A stretch of DNA of 35,109 bases, taken from assembly GCA_015490675.1 (NCBI GenBank), contig WFXI01000236.1, forward strand, positions 1 through 35,109, read 5' to 3'. A program made the position numbers and the translations under genes. This stretch comes from Hydrogenothermaceae bacterium (GTDB lineage Bacteria; Aquificota; Aquificia; Aquificales; Hydrogenothermaceae). The notes beneath the pieces were generated by a model, which saw only the letters and a program-made list of their open reading frames with translations, did not search any database and was not told the origin of the DNA. How positions within the stretch are numbered: the stretch's first letter is position 1; each line of letters opens with the position of its first letter. This document shows, piece by piece, positions 15,347 to 23,912 of this stretch.

Positions 15347-15652
15347 GTGTTTATATTAGGAAATTTTTTAGAGGCGGTGGCCAAAGTATTGGACATCGCC
15401 CTTACTATTTATATGTGGATAGTAATTATCTCTGCTTTAATTTCTTGGGTAAATCCTGACCCGTATAATCCAATAGTTAGATTTTTAAGAAATGCAACTG
15501 AACCAGTCTACAGAAAAATCAGAAAATATATTCCTACATACTTTGGTGGAATAGATATAGCTCCTGTAATAGTTATTTTATTGATTGTTTTTTTACAAAT
15601 ATTCTTAGTTAACTCTCTCTTAGGTTTAGCTTACAAGCTTAAAGGATACTAA
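15347..15652 (+). CDS. YggT-family integral membrane protein
   Basis: 101 residues starting at GTG two bases after rplQ. Two hydrophobic helices (about residues 7-32 and 70-95) flank the signature ISWVNPDPYNPIVRFLRNATEPVYRKIRKYIP, characteristic of the YggT family (CCB3/YlmG), whose members have been linked to division or membrane protein maturation in various organisms; the precise role is not established. Placed at the end of the alpha block it probably shares that transcript. Its stop overlaps the stop of the convergent minus-strand gene. Confidence 0.85.
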   Translation: MFILGNFLEAVAKVLDIALTIYMWIVIISALISWVNPDPYNPIVRFLRNATEPVYRKIRKYIPTYFGGIDIAPVIVILLIVFLQIFLVNSLLGLAYKLKGY

Positions 15653-16467
15653 TTATTTAGTTTCTCTCTTAGGTATAAAAAGTTATATATGCTATCTTCT
15701 AATTTTGGATTTTCATAAAAGAAAAAGAAAATCCCTACTGGATTTTTATCTTTATGCTCAACTATGAAAATTACTATGCCTTCTTCTGTTTCTATTTTTC
15801 CAAAGTCATTGTCTATATATTTTAAAATCTCCTTGTTACATATATTCTCCTGTGTATATATACACTTTTGTGATTCTAAATCAAAATATGCTACTGCAGA
15901 GGTATTTAACAATTGATTAAAAAGGAAAATAGCTTTCTTTTTATCATTTAGAGAAATTTTGCTAAGTTCTTCTATTTTTATTGGATAGATTTTTTCTTTT
16001 AAACTAGCTACTTGATTTAATTTTTGCGAAATTTCTTCATCTTTTCTGGTAATTAAATTTTGTAACCTATTTATAAACTGTATTGCTAAAAGTATTGAAA
16101 CTGTTGCAGGCAACCAAAATAGCAAAATGGAAAATTCTATATATTCAGAAGTATAAAATCCATAAAAAGAGACTACTAGACCTGCAAACAAGAAGGCAAT
16201 TAAATATTTTTTATCTTCTAAGTAAGAAATAAATATAGGATAGAAAAATATTGATAATATTGGATTTGAAGTTAGATATATTACAAATAAGAAAAAGATT
16301 ATATCTGCTAAAATTAAGATGTATTTAGATAAGTCTCTCAAAAAGTAGGCAGAGAAAATATACGCCACAGGAAAAATATAAAGTAAACTGTCTATATCTG
16401 TTCTTTCTAAAAAAGGAATTGCTATTACAATTAACGCAATAACACTTCTTATTAGCAGGTCTTTCAT
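15649..16467 (-). CDS. Unrecognised membrane protein with cytosolic C-terminal domain
   Basis: I choose the ATG at 16467 (272 aa, MKDLLIRSVIALIVIAIPF) rather than the track start at 16497: an AGGAG lies seven bases upstream and the ATG overlaps the TGA of the preceding gene (ATGA), giving coupled translation. Five or six hydrophobic helices fill residues 1-140. A short amphipathic, coil-like segment (RKDEEISQKLNQVASLKEKI) leads to a C-terminal domain of about 100 residues whose alternating pattern with AVAYFDLESQKCIYTQEN and PVGIFFFFYENP is reminiscent of a GAF-type sensor domain. That likeness is weak. The layout (membrane helices, coil, GAF-like) resembles membrane sensors such as PelD, but I cannot name the family. 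Confidence 0.6.
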   Translation of the reverse strand: MKDLLIRSVIALIVIAIPFLERTDIDSLLYIFPVAYIFSAYFLRDLSKYILILADIIFFLFVIYLTSNPILSIFFYPIFISYLEDKKYLIAFLFAGLVVSFYGFYTSEYIEFSILLFWLPATVSILLAIQFINRLQNLITRKDEEISQKLNQVASLKEKIYPIKIEELSKISLNDKKKAIFLFNQLLNTSAVAYFDLESQKCIYTQENICNKEILKYIDNDFGKIETEEGIVIFIVEHKDKNPVGIFFFFYENPKLEDSIYNFLYLREKLNN

Positions 16468-17300
16468 ATCATCTCCTTTGCTAAGAAGTTTATACATGCA
16501 AATATGTTTTTAGCAACATCTTGAGAATTATCAACATAAGGATTTTTCTCAAGGCTTTTAAACCAGATTAAATTGTCTATTTTCAAATCTTCAAAAGAAT
16601 TTTCTATGTTGTATGAAATATTTAAATGATTATTGATAATTTCAAGCATTTCTTTGTTTAAATGGATAAACCCATTAGTTTTATAAATTAGCTTTTCTAA
16701 ACCAAATCCTGTACTATCTACTAGTATATTAAAATGTGCGTCTTTGAAATATTCTTTGTAAATTTTTTCTATAAATGTTTTGCTATTTTTATTGAAAAAT
16801 ATAAACCTGACTCTGTATCCTCTTGGATAATTAACTGTTTTTAACTTATTTAAAATTTCTCTAAATATTTTAATATTTCTATTTTCTAGTACTGTAATAA
16901 AAACATTTATAAATCTATATCCATAACCAAAGTTAAAGTAATAGATTTTTTCTTTTTTCCTATGTGTTTTTTCTTTTATTTCCATAGTAAATTTTTCAGT
17001 TTTTAATTCCTCTTTTGTAAAGAAAACAGGAATGTTGGAACAAAAAGTATCTATATTTGAGTTAGTAATTATTCCTAAAGGATGTTCAACTTCCTTAAGG
17101 TAAATAAACTTGTATGGTTTTAGGTCTTTTACAAAAATAAAGCTGTTTCCTTTATAATTGAATTTTTCATAAGAATAGGTAATTGGCATTAATTTTATAT
17201 TTTTAAATTTAAAAGGTTTAAGGCTTGTTATCGTTAGATTTACTTCAAATTCCTGATAGGAAACATCTAAACTTTTTAATAATTTTGTTATACTTTCCAT
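16464..17300 (-). CDS. Unrecognised soluble protein
   Basis: 278 residues, no signal peptide or membrane helix. I do not recognise it. Visible: an N-terminal beta-rich region (about 1-110), a middle segment FNFGYGYRFINVFITVLENRNIKIFREIL and a stretch FNILVDSTGFGLEKLIYKTNGFIHLNKE that could be an alternating beta/alpha fold. The start ATG at 17300 has no Shine-Dalgarno within 20 bases (AAAAATTTTTATG), but TATAAT at 17338-17333 could be its -10 element, implying a short leader. It overlaps the downstream membrane-protein gene by ATGA, so the two products probably act together. Confidence 0.6.
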   Translation of the reverse strand: MESITKLLKSLDVSYQEFEVNLTITSLKPFKFKNIKLMPITYSYEKFNYKGNSFIFVKDLKPYKFIYLKEVEHPLGIITNSNIDTFCSNIPVFFTKEELKTEKFTMEIKEKTHRKKEKIYYFNFGYGYRFINVFITVLENRNIKIFREILNKLKTVNYPRGYRVRFIFFNKNSKTFIEKIYKEYFKDAHFNILVDSTGFGLEKLIYKTNGFIHLNKEMLEIINNHLNISYNIENSFEDLKIDNLIWFKSLEKNPYVDNSQDVAKNIFACINFLAKEMI

Positions 17301-18368: not shown

Positions 18369-18742
18369 TGGAAAATTTAGTATTTGTTTATGGAACTTTA
18401 AAAAAGGGATACAGCAATCATCATTTATTGAAAAATGGCAAATTTCTAGGTGAAGCCAAAACCAAGTATAAATATGCTCTATATGAAAAGGTTTATCCTT
18501 ATGTATCACATAATCCTAAGGTATCAAACATTCATGGAGAAGTTTATCAGGTTGACAATTTTACTTTGAGAAAACTTGATATTTTGGAAGGGCATCCTTA
18601 TGAGTATAAAAGGGAATTAATTCCTGTTATTTTGAATAATAAAGAATTAAAAGCATGGATGTATTTTAATGATAAATATAAAGGTGGGAAATTAATACCT
18701 CAAGGAATTTATAAAAAACAAACGCCCCGTAAAAGGGGCTAA
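18368..18742 (+). CDS. Gamma-glutamylcyclotransferase-like (AIG2/GGCT fold) protein
   Basis: 124 residues. The family signature FVYGTLKKGYSNHHLL places YGTL at residues 8-11, and LDILEGHPYEYKRE holds the conserved Glu of the catalytic pocket. Members cyclise gamma-glutamyl amines or act on related modified amino acids; the substrate here is unknown. Coupled to the aldo/keto reductase by TAATG. The last codons (KKQTPRKRG) are made of a GC hairpin, GCCCC-GTAAAA-GGGGC, that appears to be the terminator of the convergent operon, so the tail is probably not functionally constrained as protein. Confidence 0.82.
   Translation: MENLVFVYGTLKKGYSNHHLLKNGKFLGEAKTKYKYALYEKVYPYVSHNPKVSNIHGEVYQVDNFTLRKLDILEGHPYEYKRELIPVILNNKELKAWMYFNDKYKGGKLIPQGIYKKQTPRKRG
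18724..18739 (-). terminator. Intrinsic terminator of the minus-strand operon, inside the convergent gene
   Basis: GCCCC-GTAAAA-GGGGC forms a 5-bp GC stem. Reading on the minus strand it is followed by GTTTGTTTTTT, a U-rich tract, nine bases beyond the yfdX stop codon. On the plus strand the bases after the stem are TAAAAACC, so termination in that direction would be poor. The stem is also codons 119-124 of the plus-strand gene. Confidence 0.7.
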
Positions 18743-18747
18743 AAACC

Positions 18748-19632
18748 TTATTTTTCTTTTGTAGTTGTAGATTTTCTTTGCATTTCTTTAACTTTTTTCT
18801 CTAGACTTTCAAATAAAACTTTTTTAGCAGTTTCTTTTTCAACTTTTTCTTCCAATTTATCAATTTCTTCTATAAGAGGTTTAATCTCTTTTTCTGTTTT
18901 TATATATCCAAGAGCTTGAGCAAGCCTAATTTTTCTTTTTGCTTCTTCTAATAGCTGTTTTGCAGAAATTGGATTGTTTTCAAATCTCTTTTTTGCATCT
19001 TCAATTAACATAATAGCTTCTGCTAAAGGTTTAGGAATAATAACCTCTTCTATTTCAATAGAACCTATTGCCACATTTAAGGCATTTAAAGCGTTTTCTA
19101 TGTCTTTTTTCCCAAGTAATTGCTCTGCAAGTTCTATAGCTTTTGTATACACTTCAAGTGGGAGGTAACTTGTTTGAATTTGAATTTCGTTTCTTAGAGC
19201 CTCAAGTAAATCTCTGGCTGCTGGAATATCATTTTTCTCACAGGCTTTTTTTGCTTGTTGTAAAAGCTTTTTAGCAAGCTTTATATCATCAACTCCTTCT
19301 ATTTGAGCTATTACAACACTGATTGGAAGCCTATCTAATTTGTCTTTGTACTGTTTCTGGAGTTTTTGAAGCTTATTTTTTATTTCTTCAATTTTTTGCT
19401 TAGCTTCTCTGGTCTTTCCGTGAGCTAAGAGAAACACTACTTGCTGAGTATCTTGATATGCTCTTAAAGCTTCTTGAATAACCTTTGCAATTTCTTGTTC
19501 TTGAATAGATTTTGTAGACCTTTCTCCTGCAGATTGCATTAACTCTTTTGTAGCTTTATCTGGAGTACTTGATGCAAGTGCAGATGTTGCAATTATTGCA
19601 GATACTAATAAAGAAACTCCTTTTTTAATCAT
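18748..19632 (-). CDS. YfdX-family exported protein
   Basis: 294 residues. A signal peptide (MIKKGVSLLVSAIIATSALAS, cleavage near residue 20) sends it to the periplasm. The body is mostly helical. SYLPLEVYTKAIELAEQLL, ALNALNVAIGSIEIEEVIIPKPLAEAIMLIEDAKK and IRLAQALGY match the YfdX family pattern (LP..Y..A..LA..LL, a V/IIP.PL segment, and LGY). YfdX of enterobacteria belongs to the EvgA acid-response regulon and its Salmonella homologue has been reported to act as a chaperone in vitro. The C-terminal 50 residues form a charged, coiled-coil-like tail. A GGAGGG ribosome-binding site lies inside the preceding 57-aa gene, which overlaps by 8 bases. Last gene of the operon. Confidence 0.8.
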   Translation of the reverse strand: MIKKGVSLLVSAIIATSALASSTPDKATKELMQSAGERSTKSIQEQEIAKVIQEALRAYQDTQQVVFLLAHGKTREAKQKIEEIKNKLQKLQKQYKDKLDRLPISVVIAQIEGVDDIKLAKKLLQQAKKACEKNDIPAARDLLEALRNEIQIQTSYLPLEVYTKAIELAEQLLGKKDIENALNALNVAIGSIEIEEVIIPKPLAEAIMLIEDAKKRFENNPISAKQLLEEAKRKIRLAQALGYIKTEKEIKPLIEEIDKLEEKVEKETAKKVLFESLEKKVKEMQRKSTTTKEK

Positions 19633-19798
19633 TTTTTCCCTCCTTTTCTTCTAGTTCTTTTAACATTTCTTTTATTTTTTGTATAGCTTCTTCTTTTGAT
19701 ACTTCAACCATTATAGTTCCAGTGTTATAAAAAAAACGCCTCCCTTCAGGGAGACTTTTAACATATTCTAAAGTTTTTTCTAATGTTTTTTTATCCAT
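19625..19798 (-). CDS. Miniature prefoldin subunit beta (57 aa, missed by the ORF track)
   Basis: ATG at 19798, TAA at 19627-19625. The protein begins MDKKTLEKTLEYVKSLPEGR and continues RFFYNTGTIMVEVSKEEAIQ and KIKEMLKELEEKEGKND. This aligns by eye with the centre of archaeal prefoldin beta: helix end LEEL-type, then a DAxVYKxxGxILI-type beta hairpin (here RRFFYNTGTIMVEV), then K/S-K-E/D-EAxxxLxEKxETLE. Archaeal beta subunits have about 120 residues with two long coiled-coil helices; here only about 13 residues precede and about 22 follow the hairpin. An in-frame TAA three codons upstream of the ATG and the overlap with yfdX downstream rule out a longer form without frameshift. It follows prefoldin alpha by 12 bases, which fits a heteromeric pair. 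Confidence 0.72.
   Translation of the reverse strand: MDKKTLEKTLEYVKSLPEGRRFFYNTGTIMVEVSKEEAIQKIKEMLKELEEKEGKND
19729..19755 (-). terminator. Terminator-like hairpin inside the mini-prefoldin beta gene
   Basis: On the minus strand GTCTCCC-TGAA-GGGAGGC forms a 7-bp stem (one G-U pair) with a four-base loop, followed by GTTTTTTTT. This is a textbook intrinsic terminator shape, yet it lies in codons 15-24 of the 57-aa ORF (SLPEGRRFF). It could reduce yfdX expression unless ribosomes translating the small ORF melt it. It may instead have been missed selection and be weak in vivo. Confidence 0.6.
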
Positions 19799-19810: not shown

Positions 19811-20254
19811 TTACTTAGATTTTTTACCTTCTTCCTGACCTAATTCTTTAGTTCTTTGTAAAAGTTCTTCAGTTTTCTTATATGCTTCTGCAATAGCTTC
19901 CTCTAAACTTTGTCTTAAAGCCTCTAAAGCAGCAATTTGTGAAGCTATTTGTGTTAAAGCTTCATCATGTTTTAGTTCCGCAGATATGCCAGAACCTATT
20001 GAAATTATTACTTTTTCTGGGTCCTCAATTTTAGCTTCTATAGAAGCTATTGAACCTACAGGAATAATAATGTTTTTACCTTTACCCAGGTTTTTTAATG
20101 TTGCTAAAGTTTTAATAATATTTCTATACTCTGTGATTGTTTCATTAATCACAGTAATCTCAGCTCTTAAAGCTTCAATCTGAGCAATGTAACCTTTAAG
20201 CTCTTTGTTTAGGTCTTCCATTGTAGTGACCTTTTTTTCTTTTTTTTCTGCCAT
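19811..20254 (-). CDS. Prefoldin subunit alpha homologue
   Basis: 147 residues: N-terminal coiled-coil helix (about 12-57), two beta hairpins (about 61-95: IIIPVGSIASIEAKIEDPEK then VIISIGSGISAEL) and a C-terminal helix (96-140: DEALTQIASQIAALEALRQS onward). This is the architecture and much of the sequence of archaeal prefoldin alpha, where the corresponding stretch reads P-V/L-G-A-G..., a lysine/acid-rich strand and V/I-G-x-G. Prefoldin is an ATP-independent cytosolic chaperone of archaea and eukaryotes. The start follows a perfect AAAGGAGGT. A Lys/Glu leader and Lys/Glu tail flank the core. Its partner gene is 12 bases downstream. The plus-strand ORF 19986-20183 is a shadow. Confidence 0.8.
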   Translation of the reverse strand: MAEKKEKKVTTMEDLNKELKGYIAQIEALRAEITVINETITEYRNIIKTLATLKNLGKGKNIIIPVGSIASIEAKIEDPEKVIISIGSGISAELKHDEALTQIASQIAALEALRQSLEEAIAEAYKKTEELLQRTKELGQEEGKKSK

Positions 20255-20275: not shown

Positions 20276-21001
20276 TTATAAAGTTTTTTTCAATTCTGAC
20301 CAACCTGTTGTTTGCTTTTCTCTAGGTAAATAAAGGATGTATCTTGGTCTAATGTCTATATGGTGTTCTTTTAAGAATTTTTCTCTAATTTCTTTTATTC
20401 TCCAGAAATATAAAAGAGTCCCCTTATAGTGATTTTCTGTCCAAAGACCTATCCTAAGTGGAATCTCCCAGTTTTTCATTTCTGAAATTAATGGTGCATA
20501 AAAATTTTCTGCAAGAGGATGGTCTTTTAGCATAGACTTTTCCATATGGGCAAGACCCTCGGCATATGAATGAGCTATAGCTTTTAATTTTTCTATGTCT
20601 TCTACCTCTATTTCCACTTCTAAAGTATCTTGATAGATTTCTGTTTTAAATCCTTTTACATCTATCCAGTCTTTTAAATCAAAAACTTCAATATATTCTT
20701 CTTTTATTTTTTCTGGATTTAGATAAATTTTTTCCTGAATTTTAAGACTTTTGAAAACTGGATACTTATCAAAGACAATTTTCCTTATTTCTTTTACTAC
20801 TTCTTTAGGATTTAAATTTTTATCTAGTAAATACTTTTTTACCTTATTTTCTATTTCTTTATCTTTTTTGATATAGTAATAAATACCTGCTGATTTTAAA
20901 GCTCCTTCAATTACATTTGAAGGAATAAAAGGTCTCCCTTCTTCATCTCTAGGGAAACCTTTTCTGTCAAAAACAAAAGGTGTCCAGTTTAAAAGATACA
21001 T
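20276..21001 (-). CDS. RAMP-like protein (Csm5-like features), function unknown
   Basis: 241 residues, no signal peptide. The N-terminus reads like a RAMP (repeat-associated mysterious protein) ferredoxin-like domain: a first strand, then FIPSNVIEGALKSAGIYYY (residues 25-43), where Csm5 and other RAMPs have a P-G-S-S-I-K-G-A-L-R helix. Near the end, IPLRIGLWTENHYKGTLL (180-197) resembles the L-R-x-G...K-T region of Csm5, and PRYILYLPREKQTTGWSEL (219-237) resembles the C-terminal G-W motif of Csm5. The Ser-Ser-x-K-G-x-x-R residues that touch RNA in true RAMPs are only partly kept (no Arg after the helix). No CRISPR array, Cas10 or Cas6 is visible in the window. GGGGAGG precedes the start. The family call is tentative. 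Confidence 0.5.
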   Translation of the reverse strand: MYLLNWTPFVFDRKGFPRDEEGRPFIPSNVIEGALKSAGIYYYIKKDKEIENKVKKYLLDKNLNPKEVVKEIRKIVFDKYPVFKSLKIQEKIYLNPEKIKEEYIEVFDLKDWIDVKGFKTEIYQDTLEVEIEVEDIEKLKAIAHSYAEGLAHMEKSMLKDHPLAENFYAPLISEMKNWEIPLRIGLWTENHYKGTLLYFWRIKEIREKFLKEHHIDIRPRYILYLPREKQTTGWSELKKTL

Positions 21002-21016
21002 ACTAATCCTCCCCCC

Positions 21017-21709
21017 TTACTTAAATGCTGCCAGTAATTTGTCTGCTTTTTCTGCAATGTTAATGTCAAATAGTGCTATTGTTGGAAGTAACCAAGAAAC
21101 TCTAAATCTTGCATCCCCATCTTTGTTTTCTCCCCAGTAAGATAAAGCAACCCTTCCAAATCCTGCGTCTTCTTCTACATCTTTCGCCCCTCTTAAAAAT
21201 CTTCTAGCAACATTTGGAAGTTGTTCATAAGGTACTGGCTTTCCCTCTTGTCCCCTTTGTTTTACTAACTCTGTAGCAGTTCCTACATTTCTAACAGCCT
21301 CTATTAAGTGATGTAACTTGTGTTTTTTGAAGTAAGTTAATAAAATGGCTCCTGCAGGTACTCTTAGAATTTCTATATTACTATCTCCCTCCCTTAATTC
21401 TCCAATTAAATACGCTTTCCCTTCAAACATTTCAATATGAGCAAAAATTTTTTTGTTTTTGGGAAGTTCATGGATTATTTCTTCTACTTCATATTTAATT
21501 TCTTCTTCTTCGTATTTATCCCCCACATTCCTTTTACCTGTCTCTGCCGTAAAGAAAGTAGCTTCTCCATCTTTTTTTCCAAATAAAAGGTCAAACCCCC
21601 ATCTTTTCAAAGCTTTGAGTTTAAATTCTCTTTCTTTTTCAGGTTGCCCTAATGTTTCAAAAACAAGTGTGTTAATAGCCTGTAATTCTCTAAGTTGAAA
21701 TAAATCCAA
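21017..21709 (-). CDS. Unrecognised protein, first gene of the prefoldin/YfdX operon
   Basis: 230 residues starting at TTG 21709, five bases after GGAGGG; no in-frame ATG fits better. I do not recognise the family. No signal peptide. After a helical start ([20 protein letters not shown]) comes a beta-rich, strongly charged middle ([20 protein letters not shown]). The part [16 protein letters not shown] (112-127), then a helix, then AGFGRVAL (182-189) recalls the x-V-P-A-G and G-F-G-R elements in C-terminal halves of RAMP proteins. If true, it and the next gene would be two diverged RAMP-type subunits. The product could equally be an unrelated fold. The downstream RAMP-like gene starts 15 bases after its stop. 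Confidence 0.55.
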
Positions 21710-21752: not shown

Positions 21753-21785
21753 TTTATAATTTATTTCTAATAATATTTTTGTCAA
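21753..21785 (-). promoter_or_regulatory. Candidate promoter of the prefoldin/YfdX operon
   Basis: On the minus strand a perfect TTGACA (21785-21780) lies about 70 bases upstream of the first start codon. The clearest -10 candidate is TATAAA (21758-21753), but the spacer would be 21 bases; AATTAT at an 18-base spacing is the alternative. The region between the upstream terminator and this operon is where the promoter must lie. Confidence 0.45.
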
Positions 21786-21881: not shown

Positions 21882-23912
21882 CTATTTTTGAAGTTTAGAA
21901 TTTAAGTAAAAATCTAGGAGGGTTTTAAATACTGCTACAAGTTGTTTTTCCTCTAACCCTGGGCCTGAAAGTTTTAGGTTATAAAAATCCTCACCTTCTA
22001 AAGAGTTTCCTCCATCTTTTGTTCCAAAAGCTTTATCAAATAAATCTCTACCATAAACAAACTGTTGTGTTAAAACAACCTGTAGATATCTTCCATCAAG
22101 GCCATAAGCTCTATCTTTAGAAGGCATAAAAAGAGATTGCTTTATAGCATTGTTGTTATCTAGATATCCTATCAGATTTTTGTTAGTAAGAATGTTAGTA
22201 GAAGATGTTATTTTTAGATATTCTTTAGCTATATTAAAATCCAAGTTCCCATTTGAGCTAATACATTGATTATTCGTAGAATCATAAGTAACATATCCTA
22301 GTATTCTACAAATACCCTCATTGTTACTTCTAAAATGGTCTATTCCATTTGTCATTGTAAAGTAGAGTTGATATTCTCCATAATCTTTAGGGTCATACTG
22401 CCCTGCTATTAGTCCTAAGTATCCTGAGGCATTCCCATCTTCAATCTGGTTTAGCTTATCAGCCCAGTATTTAATATCATATACATCACTATTGTATCCA
22501 TAATTTGTATCTTTCCAACCTGCAGATTTTGGTAATTTTCTCCAGTAAGAAAATGTGTTATCAACTGTTCCACTTATAGCTCCGTGGCAAGCTATACAGA
22601 ATGCCATTTCTTCTTCTGTTTGAGGTCTTAAATTACCGTTTTTATCCTCTATCCATCCTCCCATTAACCAGGTATCAGGGTCATTTGGCATTAAACCATT
22701 ATCGTAAGGTTTATATGCCAATTCTTCACCTTCTTCTCCTTCCTCAGGAGGATTACTTAAATCTTGCATAGCAATTTTTTTCATATATCTAAATTCTTTT
22801 AATTGTCCTGTTTTTCCTGCAAGTTGTGGATTGTTTTGCCAATCAGGGTCTATATAATAAACAGGATGAGCAAATTCTGTTCCTACAGGATAAAGCCCAA
22901 CTTTTTCGAAGCCTTTATATTGCCATACCTGTATATTAGAAGCATCTCCTACATAATAATCTGGAACCTGTAAAAATTTAATCCCATCTGCTAAAACCTG
23001 ATATTTAATTCTATATTTATCTAATATTTGTGTATTTAGTGTCTCTACTTCGCAGTTATCTGTTACTTGTTTAATGGTACATTCTAAAATAGCAAGGTTA
23101 ACTTTGTATATGTCTTTATTATAGATACCGTTTTCTTTTCTAAATTTTTCAGGAAGTCTTATCATTGCTGAATCAAGTCTTCCATTTGTAGGGAAAAATC
23201 CTGGAAAATGTTTCCAGTCATAGGCTCTCCACCAAGTATTTGTAGTATTATCATGAGTTGTTTCTGAAGTGTAAATAAACCCTTCATTATCTATGTAGTT
23301 TGTTTTTACAAAGGAAGTTCCATTCCATTTATAAAGTGGTGGCATATCTAATTTATATTTTCCAAGACCAATAGGATTATCACTTCCAAGATATAGACCT
23401 TGATTATATGCACTTTCCCAGTTGTTTTTCCTAATCCAATTATCAATAGAAACTATTTTGTTATCTTTGTTATCTTTAACCTGTTTATTTACTAAATCTA
23501 ATTCTGTCCATTTTTTACCATTTGCTAAAATTTTCTCTATTGTTTTTTCTGGTGATACAGCATTTAACCAGGGATTATCATTTGCAGGAAACCTGAGCCA
23601 GTTAATCTGGTTCTCCCAGTCTCCAGCATTATCTACAGGTGTATTTCCTGCATTATGACAAACATAACAAGGATTAGCAAATGCTTCTCCTGTTTTTGCT
23701 TTTCCTGTATCCGTATAACACTCTAATGGTATATATGCTGTTGGATTTTTATATTTTGTAAACCAAGGAAAACCTGCTATCAATCTTGGTGATAAATCTT
23801 TATCTGCATCATATTCACCTACAGGGTCAGATACATCAACTCCTCCAATGTTACAACCTGTAATAAATAACGGTAAAACTAATAAAGCTGACAAACTTTT
23901 TTTAATTGTCAT
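21882..23912 (-). CDS. Dihaem c-type cytochrome lipoprotein
   Basis: 676 residues. A lipoprotein signal peptide ends in the lipobox FITGC (Cys20), so the mature protein is membrane-anchored on the outer face of a membrane. Two haem-binding motifs are present, CYVCH (82-86) and CIACH (439-443), each with the covalent CXXCH pattern. The long linker between them is rich in Asn, Trp and Tyr (for example GFPWFTKYKNPTAY, LMGGWIEDKNGNLRP). I do not recognise a catalytic family such as dihaem peroxidase. Its ATG overlaps the end of the DUF2325-like gene by 11 bases, and the gene ends at a strong terminator, so it is the last gene of the porin operon. A role in periplasmic or outer-membrane electron transfer is inference. 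Confidence 0.8.
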   Translation of the reverse strand: MTIKKSLSALLVLPLFITGCNIGGVDVSDPVGEYDADKDLSPRLIAGFPWFTKYKNPTAYIPLECYTDTGKAKTGEAFANPCYVCHNAGNTPVDNAGDWENQINWLRFPANDNPWLNAVSPEKTIEKILANGKKWTELDLVNKQVKDNKDNKIVSIDNWIRKNNWESAYNQGLYLGSDNPIGLGKYKLDMPPLYKWNGTSFVKTNYIDNEGFIYTSETTHDNTTNTWWRAYDWKHFPGFFPTNGRLDSAMIRLPEKFRKENGIYNKDIYKVNLAILECTIKQVTDNCEVETLNTQILDKYRIKYQVLADGIKFLQVPDYYVGDASNIQVWQYKGFEKVGLYPVGTEFAHPVYYIDPDWQNNPQLAGKTGQLKEFRYMKKIAMQDLSNPPEEGEEGEELAYKPYDNGLMPNDPDTWLMGGWIEDKNGNLRPQTEEEMAFCIACHGAISGTVDNTFSYWRKLPKSAGWKDTNYGYNSDVYDIKYWADKLNQIEDGNASGYLGLIAGQYDPKDYGEYQLYFTMTNGIDHFRSNNEGICRILGYVTYDSTNNQCISSNGNLDFNIAKEYLKITSSTNILTNKNLIGYLDNNNAIKQSLFMPSKDRAYGLDGRYLQVVLTQQFVYGRDLFDKAFGTKDGGNSLEGEDFYNLKLSGPGLEEKQLVAVFKTLLDFYLNSKLQK

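Follow-up and report, generated by a model that had tools for sequence, protein, structure and literature searches.

The stretch of DNA analysed here (the window) comprises 35,109 nucleotides of contig WFXI01000236.1 from a Hydrogenothermaceae bacterium. Its minus strand carries a prefoldin gene amid the following features, given in the direction of reading:

21758-21785, minus strand: promoter-like site TTGACA ... TAAATT ahead of the gene for UPF0128, a consensus match only
21017-21709, minus strand: UPF0128/TIGR00703 protein of 230 aa, to which its family assigns no function (PF03673 7.7e-97, TIGR00703 9.9e-98)
20276-21001, minus strand: RAMP-like protein of 241 aa with weak Csm5/Csm3 resemblance, an operon neighbour in most Aquificota loci
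19811-20254, minus strand: gamma-prefoldin gene, 147 aa, helix, two beta-hairpins and helix
19625-19798, minus strand: mini-beta prefoldin gene, 57 aa, helix, one beta-hairpin and helix, the proposed partner
18748-19632, minus strand: YfdX-like protein (PF10938 2.7e-21) with a signal-peptide-like N-terminal stretch
18724-18739, minus strand: terminator-like hairpin after the YfdX-like gene, a consensus match only

The usual gene order in Aquificota is UPF0128, RAMP-like, gamma-prefoldin and mini-beta, followed in most Hydrogenothermaceae loci by the YfdX-like gene, whose start overlaps the mini-beta stop. Of the 47 Aquificota genomes that carry gamma-prefoldin, 45 also have UPF0128, compared with 2 of the 89 others, a co-occurrence that is a link of interest. 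The RAMP-like gene is a stand-alone gene that always adjoins UPF0128 in gamma-prefoldin operons; its product is matched by the PADLOC Csm5 profile at 4.7e-4, and its top PDB profile matches are to Csm5 at 0.06-0.5. Chaperone-like activity has been reported for YfdX of Salmonella Typhi (PMC4941729), and by analogy the YfdX neighbour would fit a protein-quality theme without proving it. A CIRCE heat-shock element was looked for and none was found. Further out on the minus strand lie an ORF for a lipoprotein-like protein of 676 aa that has two CxxCH haem-binding motifs and matches no family over the cut-off (21882-23912), and two overlapping ORFs of 278 and 282 aa that have no family match (15649-17300).

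The 147-aa ORF runs exactly from 19811 to 20254, ATG to TAA on the minus strand, and the plus strand opposite contains many stops. Its conservation across 47 Aquificota genomes shows that the ORF is not a product of chance; the same recurrence, together with the S10/spc ribosomal operon on this contig, makes contamination of the window unlikely. The protein contains the motifs PVGSIASIEAKIEDPEKVII and IGSG and passes the cut-offs of both Pfam Prefoldin PF02996 (2.6e-24, 85.9 bits, cut-off 23.2) and NCBIfam TIGR00293 'prefoldin subunit alpha' (3e-27, 95.3, cut-off 53.9). An AF2 model built from an alignment of 34 relatives (pLDDT 91) places helices of 45 and 51 residues (12-56 and 96-146) around four strands in two hairpins (61-66, 70-75, 81-87 and 90-95), and Foldseek matches this model to 6vy1 first and then to the archaeal alpha chains 2zdi_C and 1fxk_C. 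The 147-aa protein thus has all the marks of an alpha-class prefoldin, namely profile matches over the cut-offs and two long helices around two hairpins, and no second prefoldin of the class was found in the genome of the window. The preliminary description had recognised a prefoldin with a helix, double hairpin and helix from the letters alone, and these data bear it out, excluding both a lack of profile matches and a bare coiled coil.

Its further assignment to archaeal prefoldin alpha holds only in part. The protein does belong to the archaeal-type, two-hairpin alpha class and resides in a thermophilic bacterium, but it is a gamma-prefoldin and not the alpha subunit of an alpha2beta4 hexamer. 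Searched as a single sequence, it matches 6vy1, the gamma-prefoldin of M. jannaschii, at 5.6e-31 and canonical alpha at 1e-10; searched as a profile, the values are 2.4e-59 and 2e-14, respectively. The phylogeny that the preliminary description had called for, run with gamma and canonical alpha sequences, does separate the clades (support 99/98 in the main tree of 69 rows, which followed a quick tree of 85 rows), yet it places the protein with gamma rather than alpha. Furthermore, residues found only in gamma, among them L56-G57, R30, R44, L94, E118 and Y125, occur in 94-100% of gamma and 0% of alpha sequences, and L56-G57 is an insertion relative to alpha ahead of the first strand. Gamma-prefoldin itself is an already known kind of chaperone, which forms filaments and has been known from a single archaeal group. 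As to bacteria, the preliminary description knew of no characterised alpha/beta prefoldin, and we likewise found no paper on one in the literature searched, with most subscription journals outside reach.

Gamma-prefoldin passes the family cut-off in 47 of 136 Aquificota genomes, spread over five families, which disposes of a one-off acquisition. It was also found in 7 of 36 genomes of the Methanocaldococcus phylum. Bins that may be misbinned add 4 of the 147 genomes in the WOR-3 phylum and 1 of the 247 Thermodesulfobacteriota genomes that were sampled. The WOR-3 bins carry the full operon of UPF0128, RAMP-like, gamma-prefoldin and mini-beta genes, the Thermodesulfobacteriota bin the gamma-mini pair (loci L071, L072, L080 and L081), through transfer or misbinning. 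The archaeal gamma-prefoldins fall into a single shallow clade (94/76), which lies within bacterial diversity and groups with Aquificota family f3. Enforcing bacterial monophyly gave a tree 16 log units worse and was rejected (AU p = 0.006, in a test chosen after the tree had been seen). Gamma-prefoldin appears to be native to Aquificota. The transfer from hyperthermophilic archaea that had been suggested for this gene is not supported by the tree; the reverse direction is not proven, as a long branch meets the gamma clade at its root, which limits inference of transfer direction.

The 57-aa ORF that adjoins the gamma-prefoldin gene had been missed in the preliminary description. It surfaced in a search of Aquificota with the beta-prefoldin profile PF01920, which repeatedly produced matches just downstream of gamma-prefoldin; in the window it starts 12 bases downstream of the gamma-prefoldin stop. 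On its own, mini-beta matches PF01920 with 29.6 bits (cut-off 27.6) over profile positions 26-77 of 106, and it matches the beta-prefoldin 2zdi_A at 1.1e-5 as a single sequence and at 3.6e-7 as a profile. Its AF2 model (pLDDT 94) consists of helix 3-15, strands 22-25 and 30-33, and helix 35-55, and the six best Foldseek matches of this model are all archaeal beta-prefoldins (TM 0.58-0.77). With helices of 13 and 21 residues, the one-hairpin head of the beta class is present and the long coiled-coil arms are absent; as modelled, mini-beta is a beta-prefoldin head with its arms reduced to stubs. Its relatives span 49-99 aa, those of families f2, f3 and f4 being 81-99 aa long with longer helices.

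Mini-beta is under purifying selection, its substitutions being mostly synonymous: dS is 0.39 and dN 0.02 (outside the overlap) when the 6vy1-type genome is compared with a relative, and most Persephonella-type pairs give dS 0.3-1.8 and dN 0.03-0.11. A gamma-prefoldin tail reached by readthrough or frameshift was discarded as an explanation of the ORF, with two stops intervening in the window and two genes in genus g11. Matches of mini-beta to polyubiquitin proved to be sums of repeated weak matches. A terminator-like hairpin with a T-run lies within the mini-beta coding sequence (19738-19755, minus strand); a similar hairpin occurs in two relatives of the same genus and not in most others.

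The two genes are strictly paired. In Aquificota, a mini-beta profile gave strong matches (49 bits or more) in all 47 genomes that have gamma-prefoldin and in none of the 89 that lack it; in the Methanocaldococcus phylum the counts are 7 of 7 and 0 of 29. Mini-beta also lies beside gamma-prefoldin in the WOR-3 and Thermodesulfobacteriota bins. The distance between the genes is usually 0-60 bases, or they overlap, as in the archaeal genome with the 6vy1-matching gamma-prefoldin, where the mini-beta start overlaps the gamma-prefoldin 3' end. In Aquificota genus g11, the pair is interrupted by the genes for UPF0128 and the RAMP-like protein. The canonical alpha loci of the seven gamma-prefoldin archaea have no mini-beta.

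We consider it somewhat more probable than not that the products of the two neighbouring genes make up a gamma-prefoldin system of two parts, with mini-beta as its end cap; binding, filaments in the bacterium and capping are all inferred here. As shown in PMC4895442, assembly of gamma-prefoldin subunits relies on two beta-sheet faces, X1 and X2; TERM, a mutant with a broken X2, attaches to the ends and caps filaments, their length being set by the ratio. In the proposed mechanism, gamma-prefoldin subunits would likewise polymerise via their beta-hairpin faces X1 and X2 into a filament whose coiled-coil bristles would hold unfolding proteins. Mini-beta would dock with its one hairpin face on an exposed gamma-prefoldin hairpin face. 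Because it has one hairpin only, it would, by the logic of TERM, attach and be unable to extend the filament; offering no surface for extension, it would cap the filament end, and such capping would set filament length or number. According to PMC11117396, filaments of M. jannaschii gamma-prefoldin reach ~5 um in vitro, where the protein is on its own, but ~500 nm in cells. The latter length agrees with a cap, but may simply reflect cells of ~1 um. Binding of a beta-like hairpin to gamma-prefoldin is moreover not a given, as the M. jannaschii protein is reported not to bind canonical beta (PMC11117396). Also against the cap, the mini-betas of 81-99 aa in families f2, f3 and f4 fit a hexamer partner equally well, and the gene separation in genus g11 means that part of the linkage may stem from operon inheritance.

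The main rival is indeed such a hexamer, in which gamma-prefoldin and mini-beta would form a closed gamma2 mini4 complex like archaeal alpha2beta4, except that two of the arms would be long and the other four mere stubs, and filaments would appear only when mini-beta is scarce, for example upon heat shock. The combination of two-hairpin and one-hairpin subunits matches alpha2beta4, mini-beta resembles beta subunits and is longer in families f2-f4, and lethal heat shock is reported to induce gamma-prefoldin 26-fold (PMC11117396). Against this stand the filaments that gamma-prefoldin forms alone in vitro and those observed in cells (PMC11117396), and the stub helices, which could hold little client. 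We regard the closed hexamer as a serious but distinctly less probable reading than the cap. It is improbable that mini-beta is a degenerate beta-prefoldin with another task, which does not bind gamma-prefoldin and is linked to it by operon inheritance only. The varying gene order, with UPF0128 and RAMP-like genes intervening in genus g11, would suit such a protein, whereas the exact match in occurrence of the two genes across two separate phyla, which holds even where the operon is otherwise missing, the strong purifying selection and the retention of precisely the hairpin argue against it.

The reading from which the analysis started, an ordinary alpha prefoldin from hyperthermophilic archaea at work in an alpha/beta hexamer, has in its favour the name of the TIGR00293 match and an archaeal family. 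However, the protein belongs to the gamma clade, and archaeal gamma is nested inside bacterial gamma. A PF01920 search of the 136 Aquificota genomes yielded no full-length beta prefoldin, every match over the cut-off being mini-beta at the gamma-prefoldin locus, and no thermosome (group II chaperonin) exceeded the cut-off in these genomes, which gave only weak partial matches in ORFs of ~545 aa. A canonical alpha subunit is thus ruled out for practical purposes.

Annotation databases probably already show the spread of gamma-prefoldin in Aquificota, because TIGR00293 names it. No mention of mini-beta was found in the passages of the gamma-prefoldin literature that were searched. More speculatively than for the window itself, and with rather less than even confidence, we suggest that gamma-prefoldin is everywhere a two-component filament with mini-beta as its natural cap, mainly bacterial (Aquificota) and acquired by Methanocaldococcaceae. 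The gamma-prefoldin discovery paper reportedly dates from 2007; if cap and bacterial origin are as suggested, all work on the M. jannaschii protein since then has lacked its partner. A conserved partner encoded next door in archaea and bacteria would open a direct way to study what limits filaments in cells, and the bacterial hosts imply that prefoldin can work without a thermosome. Gamma-prefoldin is presented in PMC11117396 as a unique M. jannaschii chaperone with an unclear role in the cell, and its filaments serve, with an engineered cap, as templates for nanomaterials (PMC4895442).

Among known systems, the closest is this M. jannaschii gamma-prefoldin (prefoldin subunit alpha 2, PDB 6vy1), which belongs to the same clade, shares the arrangement of helix, two hairpins and helix at about 44-50% identity, and likewise has a mini-beta ORF overlapping the 3' end of its gene. 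Unlike it, the protein of the window belongs to a bacterial host that has neither canonical alpha/beta prefoldin nor thermosome, and its filaments are putative. The engineered cap TERM (PMC4895442) resembles mini-beta in having one working beta face, and mini-beta is predicted to stop elongation in the same manner; TERM, however, is a mutated full-length gamma-prefoldin, whereas mini-beta occurs naturally as a protein in its own right and belongs to the beta class. With the archaeal prefoldin beta subunits (P. horikoshii 2zdi, Thermococcus beta1 2zqm and beta2 3aei, and M. thermautotrophicus 1fxk) mini-beta has the single-hairpin head in common, and the R and E flanking its hairpin are also present in Thermococcus beta2 and eukaryotic PFD2. 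Compared with these subunits of about 94-117 aa, mini-beta measures 49-99 aa, has stub arms and always accompanies gamma-prefoldin.
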